DNA of 64,000 bases from Chloroflexota bacterium (GTDB lineage: Bacteria > Chloroflexota > Anaerolineae > Aggregatilineales > Ch27). Position numbers and translations under genes: made by a program. Numbering within the stretch: the first letter of the stretch is position 1; each line of letters opens with the position of its first letter. The stretch is from the NCBI GenBank assembly GCA_019873685.1, contig JAIOAT010000008.1, forward strand, positions 1 to 64,000, read 5' to 3'. Below, piece after piece: positions 3,984-60,216 of this stretch. The notes beneath the pieces are model-generated. The model was given only the letters and a program-made list of their open reading frames with translations. It ran no database searches and was not told the DNA's origin.

Positions 3984-5399
3984 ATGCCGAAAGAAATGCA
4001 AAGCAAAGTAGCAATAACTTTGGGGCTAGAGTATCGTGAGATGCTAATCAACCTGTTGAAAAGCGACCTGGATTTCCACGATCAGGTCAGTAATTATGCA
4101 TCACATAACTTTCATGCTTTTCCTGCCAAATTCCCTCCTCAGTTACCTCGAAAGTTCATTGAAGGACTTACAAAGCCTGGCGATGTTGTTCTTGATCCAA
4201 TGATGGGGTCAGGAACAACAGTGGTTGAAGCCCTGTTGGCTGGGCGAGAGTCGATCGGCTTTGATATTGATCCTTTAGCTGTCCGTCTTTCCAAAGTAAA
4301 GACAACATGGTTAGAAATTGAACGAATCAAGGAGATCGGTCAGCGAATTGTTCGCCAAGCGTCGTTGACCCTGAATGATCCAGAAATGCTTTTGGACAAA
4401 TTAGCCACGCGATTTGATGCCAAAACAAGAGAGTTTGTTGACTATTGGTTTGCGCCTGCCACCCAACTTGAACTTATTGCTTTGGTGATTCAGATAGAGA
4501 AATTAGCTGAGCCTGAACTTAGAGATTTCTTCTCAATAGTTCTTTCAAGCATCATCATAACGAAATCGGGAGGTGTGTCTCTAGCATTTGACCTGGCACA
4601 CACTCGTCCCCACAGAGCAAAGGTAGTTTTGTCCAAGGCTGGAGAGGTCATTGTGGGAGACGCTTGTAGCAGCAATTCACGACGCGTTAGGCTGCTGACT
4701 AAGACGTTGCGTTCACCTATAGAGGAGTTCGAGAAGCGGTTACAGCGTAATTTGTCGGGATTCATTCAATATACACCGAGTACAATTCCTCCAAGAATAC
4801 AGTATGCCGATGCACAGCAGTTGCCGCTCGACGATAAGACAGTGGATTTGATTGTGACCTCACCACCTTATATATCAAATGCTATAGACTATATGCGTGC
4901 CCACAAGTTCTCGTTGGTTTGGCTGGGCTACTCAATTCAGGAGCTTGGAGACAAACGTAGAGCGTACATTGGCGGGGAAGCCGTCTCTGGTGCAAGGCTT
5001 CTTGATTTGCCTGATGCTGCCCGCCAAGTGGTGCGTAGCATCAGCCAACTTGACATAAAAAAAGCACAAGCTGTTCATCGGTACTATTCGGAAATGACCC
5101 TTGTATTGAAAGAGATGTTCCGTGTTCTACGCCCTGGAAAAGCAGCAATAGTGGTCGTAGGTACTTCTGTAATTAGAGAAATTGACACACAAATTGATCT
5201 CTGTCTAGCAGAGATTGGCAAGCATATTGGATTTGAAGTTCCTGCCATTGGCGTAAGGAATCTGGATCGCAATCGCCGCATGTTACCGGCAAGCGCGATT
5301 ATAGACAGCAATTCTCAGATTCAACAGAGAATGCATGAGGAATTTGTCATTGGTTTTTATAAGCCGATGGTAAGACGGAATAGCAATGATTATAAATGA
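3984..5399 (+). CDS. Site-specific DNA methyltransferase (SPPY class, probably N4-cytosine)
   Basis: This 471-residue protein carries the SAM-binding motif DPMMGSGTT at residues 71-79, followed by GFDIDPLA. The catalytic motif TSPPY is at 292-296. An N-terminal HNFHAFPAKFPPQL segment is typical of these amino-methyltransferases. SPPY usually marks N4-cytosine enzymes, though N6-adenine activity cannot be excluded. Motif I precedes motif IV with about 215 residues between them, room for target recognition (alpha-like order). The gene overlaps the next one by 14 bases, so translation is coupled. It should protect host sites from the neighbouring nuclease. Base composition is clearly richer in A and T than the flanks, which suggests horizontal acquisition. 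Confidence 0.85.
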   Translation: MPKEMQSKVAITLGLEYREMLINLLKSDLDFHDQVSNYASHNFHAFPAKFPPQLPRKFIEGLTKPGDVVLDPMMGSGTTVVEALLAGRESIGFDIDPLAVRLSKVKTTWLEIERIKEIGQRIVRQASLTLNDPEMLLDKLATRFDAKTREFVDYWFAPATQLELIALVIQIEKLAEPELRDFFSIVLSSIIITKSGGVSLAFDLAHTRPHRAKVVLSKAGEVIVGDACSSNSRRVRLLTKTLRSPIEEFEKRLQRNLSGFIQYTPSTIPPRIQYADAQQLPLDDKTVDLIVTSPPYISNAIDYMRAHKFSLVWLGYSIQELGDKRRAYIGGEAVSGARLLDLPDAARQVVRSISQLDIKKAQAVHRYYSEMTLVLKEMFRVLRPGKAAIVVVGTSVIREIDTQIDLCLAEIGKHIGFEVPAIGVRNLDRNRRMLPASAIIDSNSQIQQRMHEEFVIGFYKPMVRRNSNDYK

Positions 5400-6246
5400 T
5401 CTGCGCCAAAGGTATCACCAGCAAATTGGTAACGAGATTATCCGAATCAGAGTCAGTAAGAAGAGGGGTAAATATCCCAATTTCGCCGATGGAGATAATG
5501 CTAACAGCATCAGAATCGCTTGGAACATTATCGAGCAATTGAATCTCAAATCGAATGAGACAGAATTATCTGAACAAGGGGTAGGAAAGCTTTTTGAGAA
5601 AGCGACTTGCCTCTTCCTTGAACAAGTCTTTCAGTGTCTTTCTCATTTACGGCCGGGGCGTTGGCTGTACAAAACCGATACTGAGATTTCTAGCTTTGAA
5701 CAGTATGAACATCTAGCTAATGTCGCGTCCATTCTGAAGAAAAACAAGGAATTGGCCTCAGTTCTAGGAAGTGACTATATTGTTACCCCAGACATTGTTG
5801 TTGCTAGGTATCCTGTTTCAGATGAGGAAATCAATGCCAGACAAGCACTTGTAGACAATTCAGTAAGCATTGTTAGACTGACTCCGCTTCGAGAAGGCAA
5901 CCGACAGCAACCTTTTCCTATTCTGCATGCCAGTATCTCGTGCAAATGGACAATACGCAGTGATCGGTCACAAAACACACGCACGGAAGCTCTCAACCTG
6001 ATTCGTAATCGCAAGGGCCATCTGCCCCATGTTGTTGCTGTAACGGCTGAACCGCTTCCAACGCGAATTGCTACTCTTGCGCTTGGCACAGGTGACTTGG
6101 ACTGCGTATATCATTTTGCGCTTCCAGAACTAAGCCAGGCAGTAAGGGAGGCCCATACTGAAGATCAATGGGATATGCTTTGTACCATGATTGAGGGAAA
6201 GCGGCTAAGAGACATCAGTGATCTGCCGTTTGACTTGGCTGTCTAG
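5386..6246 (+). CDS. NgoMIV-family type II restriction endonuclease, predicted GCCGGC
   Basis: The protein is 286 residues long, the length I recall for R.NgoMIV. Active-site residues of the NgoMIV/Cfr10I fold are visible: E71, D136 (TPD), S185-C186-K187 and E201. The last four fall at exactly the NgoMIV numbers. The DNA-contact motif R191-S-D193-R194, which in NgoMIV reads the CCGG core, is also present. From this I infer cleavage at GCCGGC by a Mg-dependent tetramer. The ATG lies inside the methyltransferase end (ATGATTATAAATGA), so the nuclease is made after the methylase. The gene shares its AT-rich composition and converges with the ABC gene only 11 bases away. Confidence 0.88.
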   Translation: MIINDLRQRYHQQIGNEIIRIRVSKKRGKYPNFADGDNANSIRIAWNIIEQLNLKSNETELSEQGVGKLFEKATCLFLEQVFQCLSHLRPGRWLYKTDTEISSFEQYEHLANVASILKKNKELASVLGSDYIVTPDIVVARYPVSDEEINARQALVDNSVSIVRLTPLREGNRQQPFPILHASISCKWTIRSDRSQNTRTEALNLIRNRKGHLPHVVAVTAEPLPTRIATLALGTGDLDCVYHFALPELSQAVREAHTEDQWDMLCTMIEGKRLRDISDLPFDLAV

Positions 6247-6257
6247 CTAGATCGACG

Positions 6258-7838
6258 CTAGATATCCCCCCACGCCCCGGCGTGCGCCCGCGCCTGCTCC
6301 AGCGTGGAGCCAGCCATCATCAGCCCCAGCGTCTCCACGTCGGCTTCCTCGCGGGCCAGCTCGCCCATGATCTGCCCTTCGTAGAGCACCACAATCCGGT
6401 CGGAGAGGGCCATGATCTCGTCCAGGTCTTCCGAGATCAGCAGGATGGCCACGCCGGCGCTGCGCTGCTCCATCAGCACCTGGCGGATGTATTCCGTGGC
6501 GCTGATGTCCACGCCGCGCGTCGGCTGGGAGGCGATCAGGACGACCGGCTGGCGGGAAAGCTCGCGGGCCAGGATCAGCTTCTGCACGTTGCCGCCGGAG
6601 AGATTCTTGACCGGCGTTTCCGCTGAAGGCGTCTTGATGTTGAAGCGGTTGATCAGCCCGCGCGTGTGGGCGGCGATCGCGCCGAAATCGAGGAAGATGC
6701 CGCGCGCGAACGGCTCGCTGGCGTGGGTTTGCAGGATCAGGTTTTCCGCCACCGTGAAGACGCTGATCGTGCCGTGCCGGTTGCGCTCCTCCGGGATGAA
6801 CGAAAGCCCGGCGGCCAGCCGTTCGCTGACCGGAGCGTGGCTGATCTCGCGTCCGGCCAGGCGAATCGCCCCGCCGCTGACCGGCCGCAGCCCGGCGATC
6901 GATTCCGCCAGCTCGCGCTGCCCGTTGCCAGAAACGCCAGCGATGCCGACGATCTCCCCGGCGCGGACGTTCAGGGAAACACCTTGCAGAGCGGGCAGGC
7001 CCTGGTCGCTGAGCACGGTCAGATTCTCCAGCGCCAGGCGCACCTCACCCGGCTGGACTTCCGGTCGGTCGGGCTGGAGCTTGACATCGCGCCCGACCAT
7101 CATCCGCGCCAGGGTGCGCTGCTCGATCCCGTTGTTGGGCACGGTATCCACCACCCGTCCGTCGCGCATGACCGTGATCCGGTCGCATAGCGCCTGCACC
7201 TCATACAGCTTGTGGGAGATGAAGATCAGGGCGTGGCCCTGGTCGCGCATCTGGCGCAGCGTACTGAATAGCTCGTCAACCTCCTGCGGGGTCAGCACGG
7301 CGGTCGGCTCATCGAGGATGATCAGCGCCCCGCCTCGGTAGAGCGCCTTGATGATCTCCACCCGCTGCTGCTCCCCTACGGAAAGCTGCCAGATGTAGGC
7401 ATCCGGGTTAACCTTCAGCCCGTAGATCGCGGAAAGCTCCAGCAGGCGCTCCCGCACCTCCGCCAGGTTGAGCACTGTCCCCGCCGGCTGCATCCCCAGA
7501 GCTACATTCTCGGCGACGGTCAGCGTCTGGACGAGCATGAAGTGCTGGTGGATCATGCCGATGCCCTGCGCCAGCGCATCCGAAGGCGATTCCAGCCGCA
7601 CGGGCCGGCCGTTGATCAGAATCTCGCCCTCGTCCGGGTGGTAGAGACCGTAGAGGATTTTCATCAGCGTGCTTTTGCCCGCGCCGTTTTCGCCCAGCAG
7701 GGCGTGAATCTCGCCCGCCTTGACATCGAAGTTGACATGGTCGTTAGCCAGGACGCCGGGGAAACGCTTGACGATATTGCGCATCTCCGCGCTATCGATG
7801 CGGGTGTGGCCGGAGGGAAGGGTTACGCCTGAGGACAT
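6258..7838 (-). CDS. Sugar/nucleoside ABC transporter, duplicated ATP-binding protein
   Basis: Two ABC modules are fused in one chain of about 526 residues, as in RbsA/XylG/YufO-type importers. The first has an intact Walker A (GENGAGKST), a variant signature LSVGEQQR and Walker B LIILDEPTAV. The second has the degenerate P-loop GVSGNGQRE usual in this family, signature LSGGNVQK, and PTRGVDI. The protein energises import of nucleosides or simple sugars from the cytoplasmic face. AGGGGG precedes two consecutive ATGs (7841 and 7838); the second has better spacing. No permease or binding-protein gene is adjacent: the restriction-modification pair abuts its 3' end and a lipoprotein gene lies upstream. 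Confidence 0.88.
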   Translation of the reverse strand: MSSGVTLPSGHTRIDSAEMRNIVKRFPGVLANDHVNFDVKAGEIHALLGENGAGKSTLMKILYGLYHPDEGEILINGRPVRLESPSDALAQGIGMIHQHFMLVQTLTVAENVALGMQPAGTVLNLAEVRERLLELSAIYGLKVNPDAYIWQLSVGEQQRVEIIKALYRGGALIILDEPTAVLTPQEVDELFSTLRQMRDQGHALIFISHKLYEVQALCDRITVMRDGRVVDTVPNNGIEQRTLARMMVGRDVKLQPDRPEVQPGEVRLALENLTVLSDQGLPALQGVSLNVRAGEIVGIAGVSGNGQRELAESIAGLRPVSGGAIRLAGREISHAPVSERLAAGLSFIPEERNRHGTISVFTVAENLILQTHASEPFARGIFLDFGAIAAHTRGLINRFNIKTPSAETPVKNLSGGNVQKLILARELSRQPVVLIASQPTRGVDISATEYIRQVLMEQRSAGVAILLISEDLDEIMALSDRIVVLYEGQIMGELAREEADVETLGLMMAGSTLEQARAHAGAWGDI

Positions 7839-8016
7839 CATCGGACCCCCTTGCGGCTGGCCGCCGGGAAGCGGCGGGCGCTGAACGATCGGCTGGCCCC
7901 GGCAGGGCCGCCATGCCCCCAATGTATACCATCAGAAGGCGGGTAGCTACAAGCGATAGTGTGGCAAACGAAAACAGGCCGGGCAGGAAGGCGTGCCCGG
8001 CCTGCCGGAATGCGGG

Positions 8017-10110
8017 TTAGCGCTGGCGGAGCGTGGCGCCGATGCGCGTCAACGAGAGCACACGGCCATCCGGCAGCGTCAGCACGACCTCGGAAGCGTA
8101 GTAGGAACCGCGCTGGCCTGGCCGGGCGAAGTCGTTGGTCTCCTGCACCTGGATGGTATAGCCCTGCTCCGGGGCGGTGGCCCAGCCCAGTGCATTCCGC
8201 ACGCCGGGATCGCCGACCCACAGCGTGCCAAAGCCCCGGATCGGCTGGAACAACCCCTGCGGCGGCGTCTCGCTGTAGACGACATCGCCGCCTGCCCAGC
8301 GGTCCGGATCGATGCGGCCATTGCCGCTGGCGTCCAGCCACCAGATCCGCCCCTCGAACCAGATCATCAGGCCGCGCTCAAACGGCTGGTAAGCGGCCTG
8401 GGCAAGGCGGGCTGGCGCGTTGGGGCAAAAAGTCTGCCGTTCCCCTGCGGCAAACCAGGGGTAGGTGCAGGTGATCGTCACCGGGATGCCCTCCTGGCCG
8501 GTCCCATCCTGCCCGAAGATCGTGAAACGGGCGGAAGTGACTTCCGTCGGGGCGCTGATTGTCAGCGAGCCGGAGAGCGGCAGCAGGGCGCCCGTTCCGC
8601 TCAGGGAGACGCGACGGGCGGGCAGCGCCTCATGCCACATCCACAGGCTGACGCCGTTGACGCCGCTGACATCCCAGGTGAGCGTCAGCGGCCCGCCCGC
8701 GGCCACTGTGCGCGGCTGCACATCAAAGGCGTGGATCACCAGGCCGCTCGGCGCTTCGCCCACCGGGACGATGTATGACAGGCGCTCGTCGGAATACTCG
8801 TAAACCCAGCCGGTAACGCCGCTGACCTCAGAGCGCACCTTCCACTGGCGGTGGCCGAGCGTCTCCTGGGTGGCCGGTTCGATGCGCAGGCAGTAAGGCC
8901 CTTCGATCACGGTGAAGGTTTCGCCCGCCTGCAGACTGCCGGTAGTCTGGCTGCCGCCAGGCTTATCCGCTGTATCGCCCATCAGGCTCAGGCCGTACTG
9001 CATCGTGTCGGAAAGCCGTGCGCCGAAGCCCACGCGGATGCCGCGATCGGGCAGGAACGGTGCGCTGTAGCACTGCGCCGGGTCGTAGATGCGGTAGCCG
9101 CGGAACACGCCGAAGTACAGGCGGTAATCGGTGAACGTCCCGCTGTATTCGTGAATCCAGCCCTCCAGCCCGGAGCGCTCTACGCGTACGCGCCACTGGC
9201 GGTGGCTTTCGCTGCTGCCCGGCGCGCGGTAACAGAACGGCCCTTCCAGTACGACGAACGTCTCCCCGCGCGGCAGGTAGCCTACCACACGTCCGCCCAC
9301 GCCGCTGATGGCGGTCATGGGCAGGCCGGCCGGTAGCTGCTGGCTGACGATGCCGCGCGCCCCGACCTGGACGCCGGTGCTGGGGATATAGGGCGGCTGG
9401 TAACAGGCATCGCCGCTGGCTGTGGCAAAGCCGCCCAGCGGCAGCGGATTCACCGGCACGCGCAGCTCCGCGCGGGCCAGCGTCGCGCCGGTGCTCATAG
9501 CGATCACGCGCAACTGGAGGCGAATCTCGGTCGCGTCGCCGCCGGGCAGGATCGGGATCACGCTCCCGCTGCCTTCAGAGGGCACTTCCACAAAGTGGCG
9601 GGGCCGCTCAACATTGAACGTCCGACCGTCCGGGAAAACTTGCTCAAAAACCAGGTTAGTGCCCGGCGCACGGTTGTCTACCCGCCAGTTCAGCGTTACT
9701 TCCTCCCGCCCCAGGGCCAGGTCCAGAGCGTCCACGCCGATGGTGTCGGTGGCAAAGCGCGTGATCACCGGCGGCACCAGCGTACTGGTGGGCGAGGGCG
9801 TGAAGGTGGCTGATGGGATGGGCGTAGCGATGATGCCCAGGTCCACCACCGTTGGGACCAGGGTGTATAGCACAGGCGTGAGCGTTGGCGGCGGGGTAGC
9901 GGTAGGCAGGGCGGTATGGGTGGCCGTCGGACTGGCGCGCAAAGCAGCCAGGCTCAGGGGGGTGTTGGTCGGCCCCGGGGCGGTCACCGGCGTTTCCGTC
10001 GCCGGTATCGTGCCGGTCGGCATCGGCGGCGTACCACCTCCAGTGCAGCCCGCCAGCGCCAGCACGCCGGCCAGCAGGACGGCGACGCGCTTCGTCCAGT
10101 GACACATCAT
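8017..10110 (-). CDS. Large lipoprotein with two SH3b-like modules
   Basis: This 697-residue exported protein has a lipobox LALAGC at residues about 18-23. A Thr/Pro-rich linker (many TPT/PTAT steps) follows and probably spans the cell wall. An Ig-like beta domain comes next, then two related modules each starting with a Cys-containing CYxxP(Y/F)-P segment and ending GWIHEYS or GWVYEYS, which resemble bacterial SH3 domains. A second Ig-like stretch and a C-terminal domain with GWATAPEQGY complete it. ATG 10110 is preceded by GGAGG with 8 bases of spacing; the 92-codon upstream extension is rejected. The protein should be anchored outside the membrane. Its partner is unknown. Confidence 0.75.
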   Translation of the reverse strand: MMCHWTKRVAVLLAGVLALAGCTGGGTPPMPTGTIPATETPVTAPGPTNTPLSLAALRASPTATHTALPTATPPPTLTPVLYTLVPTVVDLGIIATPIPSATFTPSPTSTLVPPVITRFATDTIGVDALDLALGREEVTLNWRVDNRAPGTNLVFEQVFPDGRTFNVERPRHFVEVPSEGSGSVIPILPGGDATEIRLQLRVIAMSTGATLARAELRVPVNPLPLGGFATASGDACYQPPYIPSTGVQVGARGIVSQQLPAGLPMTAISGVGGRVVGYLPRGETFVVLEGPFCYRAPGSSESHRQWRVRVERSGLEGWIHEYSGTFTDYRLYFGVFRGYRIYDPAQCYSAPFLPDRGIRVGFGARLSDTMQYGLSLMGDTADKPGGSQTTGSLQAGETFTVIEGPYCLRIEPATQETLGHRQWKVRSEVSGVTGWVYEYSDERLSYIVPVGEAPSGLVIHAFDVQPRTVAAGGPLTLTWDVSGVNGVSLWMWHEALPARRVSLSGTGALLPLSGSLTISAPTEVTSARFTIFGQDGTGQEGIPVTITCTYPWFAAGERQTFCPNAPARLAQAAYQPFERGLMIWFEGRIWWLDASGNGRIDPDRWAGGDVVYSETPPQGLFQPIRGFGTLWVGDPGVRNALGWATAPEQGYTIQVQETNDFARPGQRGSYYASEVVLTLPDGRVLSLTRIGATLRQR

Positions 10111-51789: not shown

Positions 51790-52458
51790 TCAGCGGCTGG
51801 CTTCGTCTTCGCCCGGTGCTTGGCCCAGCACGGCGCGCAGCCGTCCTTCCAGCTCGGCCAGCATCAGCGCCGTCGCCCCCCAGACCACCTGCCCGGCTAC
51901 GTCGTAGTAGGGCACACGGCAGCGCACCCCCGCCAGGATCATCTCCTGCTCGCGCTTGCGGGCGTCATCCAGCAGATCGGCCAGCGGCAATTCCAGCAGG
52001 GCGGCTACCTCCGCCGGATTAGGGCGGAACGCTGGCCGTCCCGCCAGCACGCCGAGCACCGGCGTGACCACGAAACCGCTGGGCGGGATGTACACCGCGG
52101 CCAGCTCCCCCAGCACCCGCACCGCCGCCGGAAGCAGGCCGATCTCTTCGCAGGCTTCGCGTAAAGCAGCGGCAACCGGCGAACCATCGCCCGGCTCCAG
52201 CGCCCCGCCGGGGAAGCCAATCTGCCCGGAATGGACGCCGGGATCAGGGGCGCGGCGGATCAGGACGGTCGTCAGACCGCCCTCCGCCGGGTAGACCGGC
52301 ACCAGCACGGCAGCCTGACGCGCCGCCGGGCCGGGCGGCGGTGCGGCGCGGCGCAGATCAGGGATCAGGTGCATAGGCTGCCGGGCCGCCTCCACATCAA
52401 AATCGGGCAGGCGGAGGGCCGCTTCCAGCACAGACAGGGGGATGGCCAGCCGGGGCAT
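51790..52458 (-). CDS. CoA pyrophosphatase-type Nudix hydrolase (NudL-like)
   Basis: This 222-residue protein has the UPF0035/CoA-pyrophosphatase signature VLIRRAPDPGVHSGQIGFPGG followed by a Nudix box (GGALEPGDGSPVAAALREACEEIGL). The family cleaves CoA or oxidised CoA to phosphopantetheine and 3',5'-ADP. It lies 16 bases after the isoaspartate methyltransferase gene and ends the leftward run that includes the E1/E2/JAB genes. No strong ribosome site precedes ATG 52458; a longer frame to 52530 overlaps the upstream gene. Confidence 0.85.
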   Translation of the reverse strand: MPRLAIPLSVLEAALRLPDFDVEAARQPMHLIPDLRRAAPPPGPAARQAAVLVPVYPAEGGLTTVLIRRAPDPGVHSGQIGFPGGALEPGDGSPVAAALREACEEIGLLPAAVRVLGELAAVYIPPSGFVVTPVLGVLAGRPAFRPNPAEVAALLELPLADLLDDARKREQEMILAGVRCRVPYYDVAGQVVWGATALMLAELEGRLRAVLGQAPGEDEASR

Positions 52459-52474
52459 GGCAGAGATGAGACTG

Positions 52475-53689
52475 TCAGGCACGAGGCCTGGGTTGCACCC
52501 AGAGCGTATAGGTGTGCGCCGGGCGGACAAACACGCGGGTCAGCGCGTCCCGTTCCGGCGGCAGGTAATGGCGCTGCCCGGCGGGGGTGATGTACAGCCG
52601 GAAGTCGTCAAAGTCGGGTCGCCCGGCAGCTTCCCACTCGTGGGCCAGATCGGACAGAATCAGGTAGGCGTCGCTGCTGCCATACGTATGCACCACCCGC
52701 GTATCGCCATAGGGGACCAGGCAGGCGCTGGTGGGACTCATGATCCCCCAGCCGAATAGCTCCAGCCCGTAGGCCAGCTGGCCTTCCTCCACGTGGTAGG
52801 TGATGAAGGCGTAACCGGGCGGTTGCCTGAGCAGCATGTAGTAGCTGAACAGGCCCAGGTTATGCTGCTCCAGTTCCAGCGGCAACTGGGCAATCTCATG
52901 GTCGATGGAGAGCAGCGTCTGGATAGTTGCCTCATCCAGGCCGGGGCTTTCCCCGAAGTCGACCACCAGCGACGATCCGGGCACGCGAGTCTGGCGATCC
53001 GGCCCGGCGGCGCTGCCCTGAATGAGCAGAAAGGCAGGCGGGAAGAGGTGGACACTTTCCAGCGCCCCGGTTGCCAGGCGGCGCAACGCCGCGCCGATCT
53101 GGATGCGGCCAAAGCTCAGCGGCGCAACCAGCAGGCCGCCGACCTTAAGCTGGGCCACCCAGGCCTCCGGGATGTCCCAGACGCTGACGGCAGAAACAAT
53201 CCGATCGTAAGGCGCGTGGGGTGCATACCCCTCCGCGCCATCCTGAGTCAGCACGGTGACGGCGGGGTACCCGGCGCGTTCCAGATGCGCCTGAGCCGCT
53301 TCTGCCAGGTCAGGGAGCAGTTCGAGCGTGGTCACGCGCCCTGTTGGGCCGGTCAACTCGGCTAGCAGGCCAGTGTTGTAACCGCTGCCAGTGCCGATTT
53401 CCAGCACGTTATGGCCCGGCTGGATATCAGCGGCGCTGAGCAACACCGCCAGGACGGATGGGCGCACTGAGCCGCTGACCGGCATCCCGAATTTGTCGCG
53501 CCGGATCACGATCGGCTCATCGCTGTAGACGGCGTCCAGGTTGACGCCCGGCACAAACAGATGGCGCGGTACGCGCTGGAAGGCCTGCAGCACCGCTGGA
53601 GAAAGCGGCGTGCTGGCCCGCCGCACGATCGCCTCCACCAGGGCGGCGCGGCGCTCGTCAATCGAGTGTGGGGAACCGTGACCGATCAT
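52475..53689 (-). CDS. pcm: Protein-L-isoaspartate O-methyltransferase with long C-terminal extension
   Basis: The first 210 residues of this 404-residue protein match Pcm: PRHLFVPGVNLDAVYSDEPI, SVRPSVLAVLLSA and SAM-binding VLEIGTGSGYNTGLLAE at about 95-111. Pcm repairs isoaspartate damage in proteins using SAM. The C-terminal 190 residues form an additional domain (AYLILSDLAHEWEAAGRPDFDDFRL) also seen in some actinobacterial methyltransferases. Its role is unknown. The ATG lies 6 bases after the short Pro-rich gene, itself 2 bases after the E1 gene, so it is clearly in that operon. A protein quality-control link is inference. Confidence 0.85.
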   Translation of the reverse strand: MIGHGSPHSIDERRAALVEAIVRRASTPLSPAVLQAFQRVPRHLFVPGVNLDAVYSDEPIVIRRDKFGMPVSGSVRPSVLAVLLSAADIQPGHNVLEIGTGSGYNTGLLAELTGPTGRVTTLELLPDLAEAAQAHLERAGYPAVTVLTQDGAEGYAPHAPYDRIVSAVSVWDIPEAWVAQLKVGGLLVAPLSFGRIQIGAALRRLATGALESVHLFPPAFLLIQGSAAGPDRQTRVPGSSLVVDFGESPGLDEATIQTLLSIDHEIAQLPLELEQHNLGLFSYYMLLRQPPGYAFITYHVEEGQLAYGLELFGWGIMSPTSACLVPYGDTRVVHTYGSSDAYLILSDLAHEWEAAGRPDFDDFRLYITPAGQRHYLPPERDALTRVFVRPAHTYTLWVQPRPRA

Positions 53690-53695
53690 GGACCT

Positions 53696-54058
53696 CTACT
53701 GTTCTGCCGGTGCGGGCTGACGTGCTGGCGTGCAGCCCGGCGGCGCATACCAGGCCCGGCGCTTGCGCAGGCTCATCCCGGCCTCGGTCTCCTCGCGGCG
53801 GGTGGTACGCACGCGCCCGCGCGAATCGATATGAATCTGGCCGGCCTGTTGCAGCCGGGCGAACTCTTCCGGGGAGATGGCCGGGGCTGGTTCTCCGCCA
53901 AGCCGTTCCAGGCGGCGGGCCATGGCCTCGTCGTCGCTGGCGGCGCCCGGGGCAGGCGGGGTTGTCGCGTCGGCTGAGGCGGTGCCGGGGGTGTCTGAAG
54001 CGGGCGGCTGGTCATCCGCCGGTGGGTTTGGCAGGCTGCGATCCTTGTCCTGTGCCAT
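53696..54058 (-). CDS. Pro/Ala-rich short protein between E1 and Pcm genes
   Basis: This 120-residue protein starts with a low-complexity acidic, Pro-rich half (PPADDQPPASDTPG) and has a second half with EEFARLQQAGQIHIDSRGRV and RRAWYAPPG. No diglycine end is present, and I see no beta-grasp pattern, so it does not look like a ubiquitin-like modifier. GGAG lies inside the end of the E1 gene, 10 bases before the ATG, so translation is coupled. The function is unknown; a flexible adaptor is possible. Confidence 0.65.
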   Translation of the reverse strand: MAQDKDRSLPNPPADDQPPASDTPGTASADATTPPAPGAASDDEAMARRLERLGGEPAPAISPEEFARLQQAGQIHIDSRGRVRTTRREETEAGMSLRKRRAWYAPPGCTPARQPAPAEQ

Positions 54059-54060
54059 GC

Positions 54061-54981
54061 TTAGCTTTCTCCGTCCTGTGCTTCTGCTTCCTCGTAATGA
54101 ATCCCGGAATCGCTCAACAGCTGATCCAGGCTCAACTCGTCTTCACCAGCTTCCGCTTCCTGCAGGCGGTTACGGTGGCTGCATTCCAGGCAGGCCGGAT
54201 CGCGGGCGATAGTGATCCATTCAGCGCCATAGGGCGGCGTGATCCGACCCTGGAAGATCTCCAGCGGCCGGTTGGCCAGGATCACGGTGTTGCCCGGCAT
54301 GCGACGGTACTGATCCGTGCCCTGCAGCAACTCGTTGAGCGCCAGATCGGCCTGCACCGAGGCCACCCGCACGACATGCAACCACAGGCCCGGCTCGGCC
54401 TCCAGCGTGCCATCCGGCCCGATCATACCATAATCAAGCTCATCCGCACCGGGGTCAACCAGTCCCTCGCGGACGTCATCGGCCCAGCAGGCGTAGCACG
54501 GGCTGGCTTCGTCGCGGGGGTTGATCACCACCACATCGCCGCCCTCGCCGCGCTCATAGACGCCAGCATAGACAGCGGTCAGGCCACGAGCCAGACAGGC
54601 TTCGTTGATCAGGTACTTGACGCGCTCGCCATCCACGCCGACGACGACCAGGTCTATGCCATTGAGGGCGTCAAAGTGCTGCTCGATGCGGCCACGGATG
54701 GCCGTCACTTCGGCGTCGGGATTGCGGGCGCGGATCAGATCGGCAACGGCCTCCACTTTGGGGCGGCCCACGTCGCGCAGATCGCCCACGTGGCGCACCA
54801 CGTTAACGCTCTCCAGCAGCTCGTCGTCGATCAGAACAAAGCGCCCGACGCCGCTCATGGCCAGGCTTTCCGCCACAAAGCCGCCGCCGGAACCCAGCCC
54901 GACAACACCAACCGTGCGCTTGTGCAGGTAGTCCAGCGCCTCTTTGCCCAGCAGGCGCTCAATGCGATCCCAGGCGGTCAT
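54061..54981 (-). CDS. ThiF/E1-like ubiquitin-activating-fold protein
   Basis: This 306-residue protein has the E1 adenylation domain: GVVGLGSGGGFVAESLA (residues 25-41), IDD at 51-53, the conserved R63 and K75, and VVVGVDG ending at D117. Two CxxC pairs, C162/C165 and C264/C267, fit a structural zinc site. C129 is a candidate thioester Cys, but its role is uncertain. E1-like enzymes adenylate the C-terminus of a ubiquitin-like or sulfur-carrier protein. The genes upstream encode E2- and JAB-like proteins, which favours a conjugation system over thiamin or molybdopterin synthesis. The tail has LSLDQLL at 283-289. Confidence 0.88.
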   Translation of the reverse strand: MTAWDRIERLLGKEALDYLHKRTVGVVGLGSGGGFVAESLAMSGVGRFVLIDDELLESVNVVRHVGDLRDVGRPKVEAVADLIRARNPDAEVTAIRGRIEQHFDALNGIDLVVVGVDGERVKYLINEACLARGLTAVYAGVYERGEGGDVVVINPRDEASPCYACWADDVREGLVDPGADELDYGMIGPDGTLEAEPGLWLHVVRVASVQADLALNELLQGTDQYRRMPGNTVILANRPLEIFQGRITPPYGAEWITIARDPACLECSHRNRLQEAEAGEDELSLDQLLSDSGIHYEEAEAQDGES

Positions 54982-55120
54982 GGTCCCTCACCTCTGCTCG
55001 ATCCTGACTCTCTATACGCTAAACGCCTGACCCCGGATGCAGGGACAATACATCTTCCACAGGAGAGGCAGCTTGCCGTACTTGGGGATGCGGCTTCTCC
55101 CGACGGCGAAGCGATTGCCC

Positions 55121-56176
55121 TCACCCCTCATGCGTCGCCTGCTCGTCCGGCGCGGGGCCGCTGAGGGCGGCTTCCACCGCCCGCACCAGTTCCAGCAGCG
55201 TGCGCTCCGCGGTCCAGGGCAAGTCAGGTGTCTCCCGGGCGGTCAGCGGGCGCGATTCGGCCCACAGCCGGGCGAACATATCCTCATCATCCTGCAGCCT
55301 GAGCATCGGGGCGACGCGCACGGTCGGCGGCGTGGCCGGATAGTTGTAGCCGGTGATCAGCAGCAGGACGTGATCGCCGCCCATCCGCCCGACCAGGAAG
55401 CAGATCTCCAGCGGCGGGCGCTGGTCGGCGTCCCATTCGCTGATGCTGACCGCCAGCCCGTCGCCGGTTAGCAGGTCATATTCCGCCTGGAAGCGCTCGC
55501 GGTCGGCCAGGTGCCAGCCCAGCGGCGGCATGGCTGGCAGCAAGTCATCGGCCATGACCTGTGGGCGGGCGGCGATGAATTCCGGCAGGTCGCGGCGCAG
55601 ATACCAGATGTTGATGCGCACCGGCGGGCCATCCGGTTGGGTGGCGTAGAGGTCGAACTCGTCGCCGGGCGGGCCGCTTTCCGCGTCCCAGGGCGGGGCG
55701 AGCGTCACGATGGGGACGATGATCTGGGGCATGTCATTGCCCGCTTCCTCGAGGATCGCCCGCGCGGTCTCCAGGTCGCCCTGGCTGGGCCAGAACATCT
55801 CGCCCGGCTGTTTATGCCAGTCGCCCAGGTAGCGCAGCGGCGCATCCCACTTGGCGGCCAGGGCGTTGCCGTAGCTCTGGCGGCGCAGGTCGCGGAAGCG
55901 CTTCCAGTTGATGGCCAGCCAGTACATGATCTCGTCCTGCAGCTCGTCGCCCTGCTCGACCATGTAGCCGGCGCGGTCGACGGCGTGCTGTTCCGGCGCG
56001 ATGGTGTCCAGCACGTAAAAATCCGGCTCGCCGTTTTCGGTGGGGATGATCAGGCCCACCAGCGCCTCGGCGGTTTCCTCGTCTGGGTACAGCAATGCGC
56101 CATGCGCGATCTTGCGGATGACCCGCTCCGCCAGCACCACACGCGGGCGGGAGCGCTCCGGACCGGGAATCGCCAT
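55121..56176 (-). CDS. JAB-domain protein with degenerate JAMM motif and UBC/RWD-like C-terminus
   Basis: This 351-residue protein has an N-terminal JAB fold: ETAEALVG with E34, then GDWHKQPGEMFWPSQGD at 118-134. The JAMM pattern E-Xn-HxH-x10-D is kept for E34, H121 and D134, but the second His is Gln (Q123, codon CAG at 55808-55810). Zinc binding and isopeptidase activity are therefore doubtful. The last 120 residues (RERFQAEYDLL, LLLITGYNYPATPP, then helix TLLELVRAVEAAL) have the order of a UBC/RWD fold without a catalytic Cys. The ATG directly follows the E2 stop (TAAATG), with GGAGG inside the E2 end. It probably recognises a modifier or works with the E2. Confidence 0.8.
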   Translation of the reverse strand: MAIPGPERSRPRVVLAERVIRKIAHGALLYPDEETAEALVGLIIPTENGEPDFYVLDTIAPEQHAVDRAGYMVEQGDELQDEIMYWLAINWKRFRDLRRQSYGNALAAKWDAPLRYLGDWHKQPGEMFWPSQGDLETARAILEEAGNDMPQIIVPIVTLAPPWDAESGPPGDEFDLYATQPDGPPVRINIWYLRRDLPEFIAARPQVMADDLLPAMPPLGWHLADRERFQAEYDLLTGDGLAVSISEWDADQRPPLEICFLVGRMGGDHVLLLITGYNYPATPPTVRVAPMLRLQDDEDMFARLWAESRPLTARETPDLPWTAERTLLELVRAVEAALSGPAPDEQATHEG

Positions 56177-56647
56177 TTAGGGCCTCCAGTTCAAGCCGGA
56201 AGGCGGGCGGGTGACACGCTCCTCCACACCGGGCCAGATGCCGATCTGCTTCCAGGTGTAGTAGGCGTACAGCCACTGGATGGCCCAGCCGGCCACAGTG
56301 ACCGCCGTTGAGCGGGCCGGGTTCCAGCCGTAAGTCGTGCCATCCTTGGGATTAAAGAGGCACAGTTGCCCGTCCTCAAACTGGTGCTTGGGGCTGTAGA
56401 TGTAGGGTTTGAGGACATAAGCCTCCGGCGGATGCAGCGGGTAGGCATGGGGATAGACAATCTTGAGCACGTGATCGCGCTGCGGGACGCCGGTCATGTT
56501 GACCTCGACCTCGCCGATCCAGTGCAGTTCGCTGTCATCGCGCGGAACCACCAGCCTGAACGTGTCGCCGAAGGTGACGCGCATCGCCTCGACTTCCAGC
56601 CGCAGGCGTTTGGAAACATTGGTGCGGGTGCCCCACCAGGCGGCCAT
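56177..56647 (-). CDS. E2-like ubiquitin-conjugating-fold protein
   Basis: This 156-residue protein has the UBC order: N-terminal helix RLRLEVEAMR, strand WIGEVEVNM, KIVYPHAYPLHPPEAYVL (the YPxxPP region), then HQFEDGQLCLFNP where C96 is at the catalytic-Cys position and H88 near the HPN site. The end has W108-x-P and a helical part WAIQWLYAYYTWKQIGIWPG, typical of prokaryotic E2 families next to E1 and JAB genes. It should carry a modifier as a thioester in the cytoplasm. GAGAGGAG lies 8 bases before the ATG. No ubiquitin-like gene is adjacent. Confidence 0.85.
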   Translation of the reverse strand: MAAWWGTRTNVSKRLRLEVEAMRVTFGDTFRLVVPRDDSELHWIGEVEVNMTGVPQRDHVLKIVYPHAYPLHPPEAYVLKPYIYSPKHQFEDGQLCLFNPKDGTTYGWNPARSTAVTVAGWAIQWLYAYYTWKQIGIWPGVEERVTRPPSGLNWRP

Positions 56648-56777
56648 TCGCTGTACTCCTCTCCCGCATCAGCGGGTTGTCAACCCGATCCGCCGGAACC
56701 CTCGCTCGGCAGGTCAGGGGGCCAATCTGCCCCTGCCTGTGAGGAAGAGGCTCCGGCGGCGAATCTGCAGACGGAAC

Positions 56778-57686
56778 CTAACGACGGGCGTTGCGCCGGG
56801 CGGCAGCATCCGCCGCCGGGTCTTCGTCGATGATCACACCGGGCTGCTCATCCAACAACTCATCCAGGGACAGCCGCTCAACGCGCGCGCCGGAGAGTTC
56901 TTCCAGCAAATCGTCGCTGATCTCGCCGTCGCCGGTCAGGTAGCGGCGCAACTCGCCCCCACCGGAATCCCACCAGGTGAAGTCATGGACGGCCAGCAGC
57001 GTATCCGCAGCGTAGACGCGCAGCGTCCATTCCCCGCTGTAGTCCTCGATGCGCTCAGTGGGCAGCCAGGTGGCAGGGTAGACGAAAGTTTCCCCGGCCT
57101 TCAGTTCCCATTCGGTTTCATCCACAAACCGCACCGCGCCCTGCCCATCGACCAGCTCAAACCGGATCATGCCCCGCGCCCGGCGCGGCGAGCGCAGCAG
57201 CATGAACGGGCGGATGTAAGCGGCGTCTTCCGGCAGGCGGGTTTCGCGGTAGAGTGTGGGCGTGGCCTCACGGCTTTCGTAAGCCAGCACGCCAATGTCC
57301 ACCGGCGCCACCGCCAGCGCGTCCGGATCATGGCCTGCCCTGCGGACGGCGCGGGCTGCCACCCGATGCATGCGGCTGCCGCGGCTGGCGACCGGCGCAG
57401 CGCGATCGGTCCTGGCCCGGCGGGCGGCTGGCGCCGCCTTCTGCGCCGCTTCCTGCGCCGTTTCCCGCAGGGAGTAATCTTCCTCCACGGCGAACGGGTC
57501 CACGCGGCGCGGATCGGCGCGCCGCTGGCGGGTGGCAGCGGATTGCCCGCTGTTCAGCAGTGCAAACATCAGGATCAGCCCGCCGATGAGCATGATCAGC
57601 CCGAAGTCGATATTGGCGCCGATGGCGTTGAGACCCCAGGCGATCAGCAGCAGGCCGATCAATCCCCGTCCAAACCGGTTGCCCAT
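56778..57686 (-). CDS. Membrane protein with Ig-like domain, paralog 1 of the E1/E2 cluster
   Basis: This 302-residue protein has two N-terminal helices (GRGLIGLLLIAWGLNAIG and FGLIMLIGGLILMFALL), an Arg/Ala-rich linker and a beta-sandwich-like domain of about 120 residues (IRPFMLLRSPRRARGMIRFE through GEWTLRVYAADTLLAVHDF). The tail carries LSLDELLDEQPG (starting at 272). It is homologous to the next protein upstream. ATG 57686 has GAGG 7 bases upstream; an 8-codon longer start is less likely. It is 130 bases upstream of the E2 gene in the same direction. The family is unknown to me. The charged domain probably faces the cytoplasm but could face outward. Confidence 0.7.
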   Translation of the reverse strand: MGNRFGRGLIGLLLIAWGLNAIGANIDFGLIMLIGGLILMFALLNSGQSAATRQRRADPRRVDPFAVEEDYSLRETAQEAAQKAAPAARRARTDRAAPVASRGSRMHRVAARAVRRAGHDPDALAVAPVDIGVLAYESREATPTLYRETRLPEDAAYIRPFMLLRSPRRARGMIRFELVDGQGAVRFVDETEWELKAGETFVYPATWLPTERIEDYSGEWTLRVYAADTLLAVHDFTWWDSGGGELRRYLTGDGEISDDLLEELSGARVERLSLDELLDEQPGVIIDEDPAADAAARRNARR

Positions 57687-57775
57687 GAAACTACCTCTTC
57701 TGCGCCTCATCGTCGTGTTCCTGTACCTACCATTAAAACGGGTGTCGCGGCGGCGTACCGGTGTATCACAGCGGG

Positions 57776-58585
57776 TTACTGCTGCCCGCGCAATAGCTCT
57801 TCCAGCGAGACGGGCGAATCATCGACCGACGGGGCAGCCTGATCGGCCAGCCGCCCACGGCGGCGCTCCAGATCGCCGATCTGGCGCTGGCGGCTGGCCA
57901 GCGACGGGCCAACCGGGAAGGTGTGCAGACCGACCACGCTCCCGGCCAGCGTCACCCGCAACTCCCACAGCCCCGGCCCGACGCCTTCCGGCGCCTTTGG
58001 CCCCAGCGGCAGGCGATTGCTGGAGAGGATATTGTTCTGCCCCTCGCGCAGGTAGACATCCTCAACGTGGCGGAACAACAACTGACCGGATTGATCCAGG
58101 ATTTCAAACTGGGCGGTGACGGTTTCGTTGGCCCAGGAAGAATCGGCCTCAATGACGACATAAGGCTGGATGCCTTCATCGTCCAGCGTCAGGTTATCGC
58201 GGCGCAGATGCAGGCCGTCCGGGCGTATCTCGCTCACGATCAGGCCGATGTCGGCCAGGGTGAACTGTTCTTCGTAATCGGCCAGGCGGCTGGCCCGTTC
58301 CTGCGCGCGCTGAGCCGCGCTGCTGGCCCGCACCCGGCTACGGCGGCGCGGCGTCGTGATGCGCACATCCGTCCCCGGCTGGGGCAGCCGCCGCCGCAAT
58401 TCGTCCAGATCAAAGAGACCCAGCCCGATCAGCGCCACGACCAGGTACAGCGCCAGCCCGATGACCAGCGCCTGCGACGGCAAAACGCCTGAGGCAAAGA
58501 TCGGAGCCAGCATCAGGCCGAGGAGGATTAGCCAGACTTTGGTGGCGCGGCGGCTCTTGCGCATGGTTGTTTTCCCGCTGCTCAT
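57776..58585 (-). CDS. Membrane protein with Ig-like domain, paralog 2 of the E1/E2 cluster
   Basis: This 269-residue protein has two N-terminal helices (WLILLGLMLAPIFASG and ALVIGLALYLVVALIGLGLF), an Arg-rich linker and a beta-rich domain (GIQPYVVIEADSSWANETVTA through LWELRVTLAGSVVGLHTFPV) that aligns with its neighbour. The last eleven residues are VSLEELLRGQQ. The start is ATG 58585 or ATG 58564; neither has a strong ribosome site. It is the first gene of the leftward cluster that leads to E2, JAB and E1. The function is unknown. Confidence 0.68.
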   Translation of the reverse strand: MSSGKTTMRKSRRATKVWLILLGLMLAPIFASGVLPSQALVIGLALYLVVALIGLGLFDLDELRRRLPQPGTDVRITTPRRRSRVRASSAAQRAQERASRLADYEEQFTLADIGLIVSEIRPDGLHLRRDNLTLDDEGIQPYVVIEADSSWANETVTAQFEILDQSGQLLFRHVEDVYLREGQNNILSSNRLPLGPKAPEGVGPGLWELRVTLAGSVVGLHTFPVGPSLASRQRQIGDLERRRGRLADQAAPSVDDSPVSLEELLRGQQ

Positions 58586-58746
58586 TGGCCGGTCTGTGAA
58601 CCGGAGGAACGCAGGGCGTTCCCTGTTTGTATTCTAAACCGGTATTCGGGTGGCTGCAGCCCCAAAAGGTTAGGGGAGGCTACGATTCTCTATACGCTCC
58701 GGCAGGCCGGAGGTTGCAGGGCAGCGTCGCCTATCCCGCCCGGCGC

Positions 58747-59142
58747 TCAGCCGTGCGCGTCAACATGCTCCGGCAGGATACGGTAGAGCCGCCGTACCTC
58801 GCCGCCGCGCCCGAAGTCGCCGATCCGGCCCGTGTATTTGGGCGAGAGCACGCGATTGATGTGCTCCGCTGCGCCGTCTTCTTCCATGGCAACCACGCGC
58901 CCGCGTACGGCCAGGTAGCGGTAGGGGTTGTCAGGATCGATGATCTCCACCGCCACATGGGGCCGGGCCTGCATGTTGCGGTCCTTGACCCGCCCTTTGG
59001 CCGTATTCACCAGGATGTGCGTGCCGTCGAAGTCCACCCAGACCGGCGTGACCTGTGGCGTGCCGTCCGGCATCAGGGTGGCCAGGTGGGCAAAAGCCTT
59101 CTTGTCAAACAGATCCAGGAATTCGGGTGGGATTGAAGCCAT
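58747..59142 (-). CDS. PPOX-class FMN/F420-dependent oxidoreductase
   Basis: This 131-residue split-barrel protein has HLATLMPDGTPQVTPVWVDFDG, LVNTAKGRVKDRNMQARPHVAVE and YLAVRGRVVAMEEDG, the pattern of the PPOX class F420-dependent family. Such enzymes reduce small substrates using F420 or FMN. AAAGGAGGGG precedes two consecutive ATGs (59145, 59142); the second has better spacing. It lies 36 bases after the kinase-MazG gene in the same direction. Confidence 0.85.
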   Translation of the reverse strand: MASIPPEFLDLFDKKAFAHLATLMPDGTPQVTPVWVDFDGTHILVNTAKGRVKDRNMQARPHVAVEIIDPDNPYRYLAVRGRVVAMEEDGAAEHINRVLSPKYTGRIGDFGRGGEVRRLYRILPEHVDAHG

Positions 59143-59178
59143 CATACCCCTCCTTTCTCCGGGCGCTGGCTCCATAGC

Positions 59179-60216
59179 TTACGGCCAGCGGCGGTTCAGG
59201 TTGGCCTGCATCTTCTCCAGGTAAGCCGCCTCCAGGTCGACGCCCAGATAGTTGGCCAGCTTGAGCAGGTAAGCCAGCACGTCAGCCAGTTCCAGCCCGG
59301 CCGCTTCCAGCGCGGACGGTACTTCGGCGTCGGTTCTGGCGCTGCTGCGGGCCGCTACCAGCCGGGCCAGCTCTCCGATTTCTTCCTGCAACTTGACGAA
59401 GTTGAACAGCGGATCGCGGTTGAAGCCGCGGGCGTCATCCAGCCACTCGTGGAACGCCTGGAAGTCGCGCAGGCGGCGGGCGCTGGCGGCCAGATCAGGC
59501 GGCGGGGCGCTTTCAGCGGGCGCGGCTGCTGCTGCGCCGGGCGGTTGGCTGCCGGCGGCAGCGCCGGCGGGCGGCTCGCCGCGCAGCCCACCGTTGAAGC
59601 CCGGCAGCGCTTCCTGGCGGGGAGCGCGACCCAGCGCCGCCAGCACGCGGGCGATCACCTCGGCACGGTCAGCGTCGCTGCTCACAAAGTCCAGGGCGTT
59701 GGCGTCCAGCGTCAGGACCGGCCCCTGGTCATAAGCGGCGAAGAAGGCTTCGTACGCGCGGCGCAGGCTTTCGATGTAATCAGCGGCCATGTTGCGCTCA
59801 TAGGGCCGGTCGCGCTGGCTGATCCGCCGCATCAGCAGATCGGTATCCGCCCGCAGGTAGACGAGCAGATCAGGCGTTTCGATCTGCTCGGCCAGTGCGT
59901 CATGCACCCGCTGGTAAACGGCCAGCTCGTCGCCATGCAGGTTGACGCTGGCAAAGAGCGCATCCTTGGCGAAGATGTAATCGCTGATCAGCGGGCGGGT
60001 CATCAGCCGCAACGAACGTTGCTGGTGGTAGCGGCTGAGCAAAAAGAAAATCTGCGTCTGGAAGGCATAGCGGGCGCGATCAGCGTAGAAGCTGCTCAGG
60101 AAGGGGTTCTCCTCAAAAACCTCCAGCACCAGGTGGCCGCCCAGTTCAGCGTGCAACAGCCGCGCCAGGGTGGTCTTGCCCGCGCCGATCACGCCCTCAA
60201 TCGCCACATACGTCAT
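59179..60216 (-). CDS. Deoxynucleoside kinase fused to MazG-like pyrophosphohydrolase
   Basis: This 345-residue protein has an N-terminal deoxyadenosine/deoxycytidine kinase domain: P-loop GVIGAGKT at 8-15, LEVFEENPFL, SDYIFAKD and RISQRDRPYERN (the ERS/DRPYE lid). A Pro/Ala-rich linker of about 45 residues follows. The last 94 residues (252-345) form a MazG-like helical domain with E279-x2-E282 and E309-x2-D312, the metal-binding pattern. The kinase makes dNMPs, and the MazG part removes pyrophosphate from dNTPs or damaged nucleotides. This couples salvage with pool cleaning in one chain. The fusion is seen in a single unbroken frame. Confidence 0.87.
   Translation of the reverse strand: MTYVAIEGVIGAGKTTLARLLHAELGGHLVLEVFEENPFLSSFYADRARYAFQTQIFFLLSRYHQQRSLRLMTRPLISDYIFAKDALFASVNLHGDELAVYQRVHDALAEQIETPDLLVYLRADTDLLMRRISQRDRPYERNMAADYIESLRRAYEAFFAAYDQGPVLTLDANALDFVSSDADRAEVIARVLAALGRAPRQEALPGFNGGLRGEPPAGAAAGSQPPGAAAAAPAESAPPPDLAASARRLRDFQAFHEWLDDARGFNRDPLFNFVKLQEEIGELARLVAARSSARTDAEVPSALEAAGLELADVLAYLLKLANYLGVDLEAAYLEKMQANLNRRWP

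Follow-up and report, generated by a model that had tools for sequence, protein, structure and literature searches.

Gene content and conservation of the locus

The 64,000-nucleotide stretch of contig JAIOAT010000008.1 analyzed in this work (hereafter, the window), from a genome of the order Aggregatilineales, contains a set of genes for a predicted ubiquitin-like conjugation pathway. All positions follow the numbering of this stretch, and all parts of the locus are encoded on the minus strand. A collinear gene run from 58585 to 53696 encodes, in this order, two transmembrane (TM) proteins named TM1 and TM2, a conjugating enzyme-like (E2) protein, a JAB protein, an activating enzyme-like (E1) protein, and a 120-aa protein termed sml. 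A preliminary description of the locus had claimed a ubiquitin-like conjugation gene set in one leftward run, with an E2 carrying Cys96, a JAB protein, and a ThiF/E1 protein. All of these components were confirmed, and the open reading frames (ORFs) of the five core proteins and of a flanking methyltransferase are found where it had placed them.

The distribution of E2 was analyzed in the own genome and 100 relatives (101 genomes), 69 of which were regarded as good genomes (completeness at least 90%, contamination at most 5%). E2 was found in 86 of the 101 genomes, including 66 of the 69 good genomes of Aggregatilineales, and it is present as a single copy in all genomes but one, a contig-edge fragment aside. 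Its identity is 53-81% outside the own genus, and no match was obtained in the families f3, f5, and f6 of the order. Gene order was counted in 84 distinct loci belonging to Aggregatilineales (Anaerolineae), with denominators that vary by gene. JAB is the next gene after E2 in 78/78 loci, E1 comes next in 73/74, and sml adjoins E1 in 56/73; in the genome G005, sml is retained on a separate contig, away from E1. The TM genes lie upstream in 26/73 loci. Conservation of gene order in relatives had been set beforehand as the test of the proposed gene set, and the arrangement E2-JAB-E1 is collinear in 73 of 74 loci of the order, which exceeds a chance grouping. Because E2 is a single-copy gene in 66/69 good genomes and the gene order is kept so consistently, the gene set is a core module inherited vertically across Aggregatilineales rather than a patchy defense island.

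Outside the order, the class holds only weak relatives of E2. Two of those examined are paired with proteins resembling cGAS/DncV-like nucleotidyltransferases (CD-NTases), and one, in the genome G122, with E1 and JAB; the latter set is missing from the two other genomes of the small order to which G122 belongs. At the loci L055 and L060, a CD-NTase-like gene is directly followed by E2, without E1 or JAB, an arrangement that resembles a short type II cyclic oligonucleotide-based antiphage signaling system (CBASS).

The E2 and E1 proteins

The 56177-56647 protein (156 aa) had been described as E2-like, and its membership in the UBC family holds: the profile of 28 orthologs matches UBE2L3 (7b5l, E-value 1.5e-5), with Cys96 (codon at 56360-56362) located on the active-site CL motif of UBE2L3, and this cysteine is invariant in 28/28 orthologs. 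The PADLOC E2 models also match the protein (best 2.9e-14), while the match to the Pfam family UQ_con (0.013) is below the cut-off. E2 may form a thioester on Cys96.

The E1 protein (306 aa, 54061-54981) is of the ThiF/MoeB/UBA5 type of adenylating enzymes. It matches ThiF at 9e-32, and both UBA5 (1.2e-10) and MccB are among its PDB matches. Its universal cysteines are confined to two CxxC pairs (C162, C165, C264, and C267), and MoeB likewise has two CxxC pairs; C129 is present in 23/28 sequences. E1 is predicted to adenylate, since its invariant residues G28, G30, D52, R63, K75, and D117 correspond to the MoeB adenylation residues Gly41, Arg73, Lys86, and Asp130 (PMC12355090). The acidic C-terminal tail of E1 contains the motif SLDQLL (54116-54132); in UBA5, short motifs are used to recruit UFM1 and UFC1 (PMC12355090). 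The own genome encodes a second ThiF-family E1, of the MoeB-rhodanese type, that adjoins a MoaD-like gene, and thus the operon E1 is not needed as a sulfur-carrier enzyme.

The JAB-UEV protein

The JAB gene (55121-56176) starts where the E2 gene stops and encodes a protein of 351 aa, for which an AlphaFold (AF2) model was obtained with a predicted local distance difference test score (pLDDT) of 91. By this model, the protein is a fusion of a JAB domain and a cysteine-less UEV domain that is closest to the UEV of TSG101. Residues 10-214 (55535-56149) adopt a JAMM/MPN fold with Z-scores of about 15 to Rpn11, BRCC36, and the Caldiarchaeum Rpn11 homolog. Residues 214-345 (55142-55537), modeled alone with a pLDDT of 92, have a UBC fold without the catalytic cysteine; in VIA-align their top-ranking matches are the UEV domains of TSG101 and Vps23 (Z-score 9.6, 3.8 Å over 108 residues), and the remaining matches listed are UBC, UEV, or FANCL folds. 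Foldseek matches of the UEV domain alone are weak (best E-value 0.28, none below 0.001). Comparison by hhalign with the operon's own E2 gave P 1.5e-5 for the UEV part and P 0.35 for the JAB part.

The JAMM fold is present, but the window copy (E34..H121-K-Q123..S131..D134) departs from the canonical E..HxH..S..D zinc motif, having HKQ in place of HxH. The metal motif is HxQ in 71/84 loci and HxH in the other 13, and a BRCC36 "QSQ mutant" is among the structural matches of the JAB domain. The HxQ forms are probably impaired, because a change of this kind inactivates JAMM enzymes. In most of the order, the combination of an HxQ JAB with a UEV domain would then probably be more of a reader than an efficient isopeptidase. 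Both the UEV domain and the HxQ substitution were absent from the preliminary description.

The small protein sml and related loci in Chloroflexota

The sml gene (53696-54058), located between the E1 and methyltransferase genes, had also been missed, and its conservation within the order exceeds that of the methyltransferase gene. The 120-aa sml protein is bipartite: a variable, Pro-rich, disordered N-terminus precedes a conserved C-terminal part of about 55 residues, with 17 invariant columns among 58 sequences. In the window, the conserved core comprises residues 49-104 (53747-53914) and ends in SLRKRRAWY. Among 59 distinct sequences of relatives, AWY is located 0-6 residues from the C-terminus in 58, while the window's own sml extends 16 residues past it. 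In 34/59 sequences, WY is followed by Ala or Gly. Exactly one residue follows WY in 9 of the 12 sml proteins that accompany HxH JABs and mostly two or more in those with HxQ JABs, a difference that is confounded by kinship. A reading of the C-terminus as an HbYX proteasome-docking motif was set aside in view of the 0-6 residues after WY. The sml protein also has an invariant "AP" in "GEPAP", and TSG101, whose UEV is closest to that of the partner JAB protein, is a binder of P(T/S)AP peptides; this parallel is suggestive only.

In 400 genomes scanned across the phylum, sml was confined to Aggregatilineales. Related E2-E1-JAB loci are present in G122 and in several genomes of another Chloroflexota class, and in those examined a gene for a 50-100-aa protein lies directly upstream of E2; sml relatives adjoin E2 in three other Chloroflexota families. 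The small genes of these loci read "SLEDLKRQLQTAQPVFVDSQGRL ... VKPSRWF", compared with "TPEEFARLQQAGQIHIDPRGRV ... SLRKRRAWY" in sml, and the profile comparison of the two groups gave P 5e-4, whereas a reversed control gave 0.34. The related-locus small gene ends exactly at RWF. The tail motif recurs at the N-terminus of E2 at the loci L236 and L215 ("TRLKPTRWYAAW" and "ILRPMRWYAAW"), which suggests a docking element. The related loci also encode TM proteins with UEV/RWD-like stretches recognized by eye, and one RWD match at 0.003 was obtained in them.

Two of these loci have further components. At L215 (2792-4180), a protein with an SPFH/Band 7 domain and a C-terminal RWD-like stretch adjoins E1, which gives another membrane link. 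At L235, in a 9-Mb Chloroflexota genome, a YukD-domain protein (7489-8478; PF08817, E-value 1.2e-4) is encoded upstream of a small gene-E2-JAB set, two genes before the small gene, and two short helical ORFs of ESX-like type accompany the set.

Membrane proteins and a shared C-terminal motif

TM1 (57776-58585) contains N-terminal TM helices and a beta-rich domain and ends in SLEELLRGQQ, with the SLEELL motif at 57792-57808. TM2 (56778-57710) has the corresponding motif SLDELL at 56854-56870. The two had been described as paralogs with a putative Ig-like character, and alignment of their ORFs agrees that they are mutually homologous; neither matched a Pfam family. The S-L-x-x-L-L tail is invariant in all 20 aligned TM proteins, whose overall identity to TM2 is 21-41%, and S-L-x-x-L is present in 71/77 E1 tails. 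The pattern [ST]L[DESNQ][DEQN]L[LIVMA] does not occur in the last 45 residues encoded by any of the 795 other genes that surround the operon. Genome-wide counts were made by IUPAC pattern searches at the codon level and gave 14 SLxxLL-type matches, the C-terminal ones being E1, TM1, TM2, and one short doubtful ORF (SFEELL). The SL[DE]xLL C-terminal motif is common to E1, TM1, and TM2, with no other convincing C-terminal case in the genome. The membrane link postulated in the preliminary description is supported indirectly by this near-unique motif and by the TM proteins with UEV/RWD-type domains in related Chloroflexota loci.

Proposed pathway and alternative explanations

Folds, conserved residues, gene order, conservation, and shared motifs, as obtained by sequence and structure prediction, point to an order-wide core pathway with a UBA5-style E1, an E2, and a JAB-UEV protein, which would be docked at the membrane and have the small bipartite protein as a dedicated cargo or adaptor; we assign this explanation a probability of about 55%. 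From these features we infer adenylation, thioester formation, membrane docking, and a reader role. The MoeB-like E1 would adenylate a C-terminus in the minimal style of UBA5-UFC1, E2 would accept the activated C-terminus on Cys96 and then conjugate it, and the JAB-UEV protein would bind or cleave the conjugates. Since the E1 tail shares SL[DE]xLL with the C-terminal ends of TM1 and TM2, these three tails most likely compete for, or gather on, one putative binding surface, which would put the pathway at the membrane wherever TM1/TM2 exist. The sml protein would be the dedicated partner of this pathway: its first conserved block is similar to the SL[DE]xLL tails, and the last one (..RKRRAWY / ..VKPSRWF) is similar to the E2 N-terminus of related loci. 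It may be a cargo activated by E1 or, with slightly higher probability, a bivalent adaptor tying E2 to E1/JAB-UEV; the likeness to the E2 N-terminus and a terminal residue that is not fixed favor the adaptor role.

Several observations weigh against this explanation. No beta-grasp ubiquitin-like protein (Ubl) is found in the conserved neighborhood at the loci of the order. Apart from the zinc CxxC pairs, E1 shows no catalytic cysteine that is conserved across the 28 aligned sequences, which makes a canonical E1 thioester doubtful. The TM1/TM2 genes are upstream in just the minority of loci counted above, and hence membrane docking would be not universal or would use unlinked partners. In addition, the 84 loci are related by descent, so that the counts derived from them are not independent.

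The first alternative, which we consider possible but rather unlikely, is that E1 and E2 conjugate a beta-grasp protein encoded elsewhere and sml is a mere adaptor. MoaD/ThiS-type proteins are encoded in the own genome, and one of them, a TtuB-like 70-aa protein ending in ISGG (L209, G000:C4:88459-88623), adjoins a TtuA-like gene and is a possible modifier; a YukD-like protein is another candidate, given the YukD-domain protein near the small gene at L235. However, the second ThiF-family E1 can serve sulfur carriers, and the neighborhood contains no Ubl, YukD or otherwise, that is conserved within the order. The scanned window genes include no Ubl, ISG15-like Ubls among them, and no YukD-type Ubl, and none of the latter is conserved near the operon in the order, although no genome-wide search for YukD was made. 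In a search for a hidden Ubl, 3706 leftover ORFs located no more than 9 kb from E2 in the loci of the order were clustered, which gave no conserved small same-strand family.

Next in probability, and likewise on the unlikely side, the tag that is conjugated may be sml itself, as a disordered modifier without a beta-grasp fold; E1 would adenylate its C-terminus, located after Trp-Tyr/Phe, and pass it to E2, and JAB would trim the extra 0-6 residues. E1-like enzymes do act on C-termini other than those of Ubls, an example being the conjugation by Cap2 of cGAS, a protein without a beta-grasp fold (PMC10097602). The constant presence of sml as a small partner, its motif held near the C-terminus, the frequent Ala or Gly after WY, and the end of the related-locus gene exactly at RWF are all consistent with a tag. 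On the other hand, the C-terminal residue is not strictly defined, a terminal Trp or Val abolished both thioester formation and conjugation in CBASS (PMC10097602), the reappearance of the motif in the N-terminus of E2 at L236 and L215 favors docking, and JAB is of the HxQ form in most of the order. We regard as doubtful the broader proposal of an E1-E2 cascade, core in the whole order, in which a short, largely disordered, non-beta-grasp modifier with an aromatic (Trp-Tyr/Phe) C-terminal tail would be read by JAB-UEV, as an E1/E2-driven counterpart of pupylation.

An antiphage operon of the Bil, CBASS, or Bub type is very unlikely. The best PADLOC matches of E2, E1, and JAB are the E2, E1-E2, and JAB defense models, respectively, and the nearest E2s outside the related sets are paired with CD-NTases. 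In contrast, the gene set is nearly universal and single-copy in the order, and its distribution (66/69 good genomes, not patchy among close relatives) speaks strongly against a defense island. No CD-NTase cyclase is present among the scanned genes at 51790-60216, and no CD-NTase or ISG15-like gene adjoins the operon. JAB had no plasmid match, and E2 had none in IMG/VR and a single weak match in a phage search. A Bil/CBASS-type antiphage function is thus not supported, and the gene set looks like a housekeeping pathway of protein tagging or docking rather than an antiphage island.

Least probable of all is a maturation cluster resembling those of ribosomally synthesized and post-translationally modified peptides (RiPPs), in which E1 would activate an sml precursor as MccB does and an FxLD-type methyltransferase would modify a conserved Asp: MccB is among the E1 matches, sml has the invariant Asp78, and the methyltransferase matches TIGR04364 (FxLD) and TIGR04188, both below the cut-off, but this enzyme follows in 25/54 loci only, E2, JAB, and UEV are not RiPP enzymes, and the conserved sml part shows hardly any variation, in contrast to the cores of natural products.

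Comparison with known systems

Bacterial E1-E2-JAB sets and cysteine-less RWD/E2-like domains are already known (PMC1779556). The closest profile matches are to type II CBASS, in which the E1-E2 fusion Cap2 and the JAB protein Cap3 conjugate a CD-NTase; this system shares with the present one E1, E2 with an active cysteine, JAB, and an operon without a beta-grasp Ubl. Here, in contrast, E1 and E2 are separate, no CD-NTase adjoins them, JAB is fused to UEV and mostly HxQ, the set is core in an order instead of patchy, and an additional small protein and membrane partners are present. The Bil and Bub operons similarly combine E1, E2, and JAB, whereas the set described here has no visible Ubl gene, is not patchy, and has an E1 without a universal catalytic cysteine and a JAB-UEV fusion. 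Iyer et al. (2006) described prokaryotic E1/E2/JAB neighborhoods of types 6a-6e, with inactive E2-like (RWD) domains in type 6e (PMC1779556). The present locus resembles these in its E1-E2-JAB grouping and the occurrence of cysteine-less RWD/E2-like domains; however, the RWD-like domain of 6e is standalone or fused to a Ubl repeat protein rather than to JAB, and both 6d and 6e include Ubls. UBA5-UFC1 (UFMylation) has a homologous minimal adenylating E1 with short motifs in its C-terminal tail, but UBA5 has a catalytic cysteine, which is not universal here, and the beta-grasp cargo UFM1. The sets linked to YukD and type VII secretion are approached by L235, which joins a small protein, E2, JAB, a TM protein with a UEV/RWD-like stretch, and the YukD-domain protein, whereas no YukD gene is seen in the Aggregatilineales operon.

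In the openly accessible literature, with subscription literature outside the search, we found no earlier description of the order-wide core status, the JAB-UEV protein with HxQ, the shared tail motif, or the conserved small partner. In 2011, Burroughs, Iyer, and Aravind reportedly surveyed bacterial sets linked to YukD/RING, and the Chloroflexota loci related to the present one may be touched on there. Among bacterial E1-E2-JAB sets, those studied best are immune operons of patchy distribution; since the present set is inherited as a core across an order, it may represent housekeeping protein conjugation in bacteria. The combination of an E1 without a universal catalytic cysteine, JAB-UEV, shared docking tails, and a small partner makes non-immune E1-E2 substrates directly testable.

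Neighboring genes

Downstream of sml, the gene at 52475-53689 encodes a PCMT/FxLD-type methyltransferase homolog (PCMT, 4.8e-37), for which the best NCBIfam model is the FxLD methyltransferase. The isoaspartate methyltransferase of the preliminary description is thus a homolog located where it had been reported, but it is an optional neighbor, which rules it out as a core part. A damage-linked pathway is not supported, as this homolog follows in fewer than half of the loci, its best model is of a peptide-modifying type, and the constant partner is sml. A NUDIX hydrolase gene (51790-52530), likewise optional, is a more frequent neighbor (39/54 loci). In two close relatives (L072:11448-11969 and L073), the place of the 139-nt gap that separates JAB from E1 in the window is taken by a gene for another small membrane protein. 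On the other side of the gene run, a single ORF (59179-60216) contains a deoxynucleoside kinase domain followed by a MazG-like domain, an unusual-looking fusion. Elsewhere in the window, the GC content is 0.445 at 4001-6000 against a background of 0.65, which may indicate an acquired segment.

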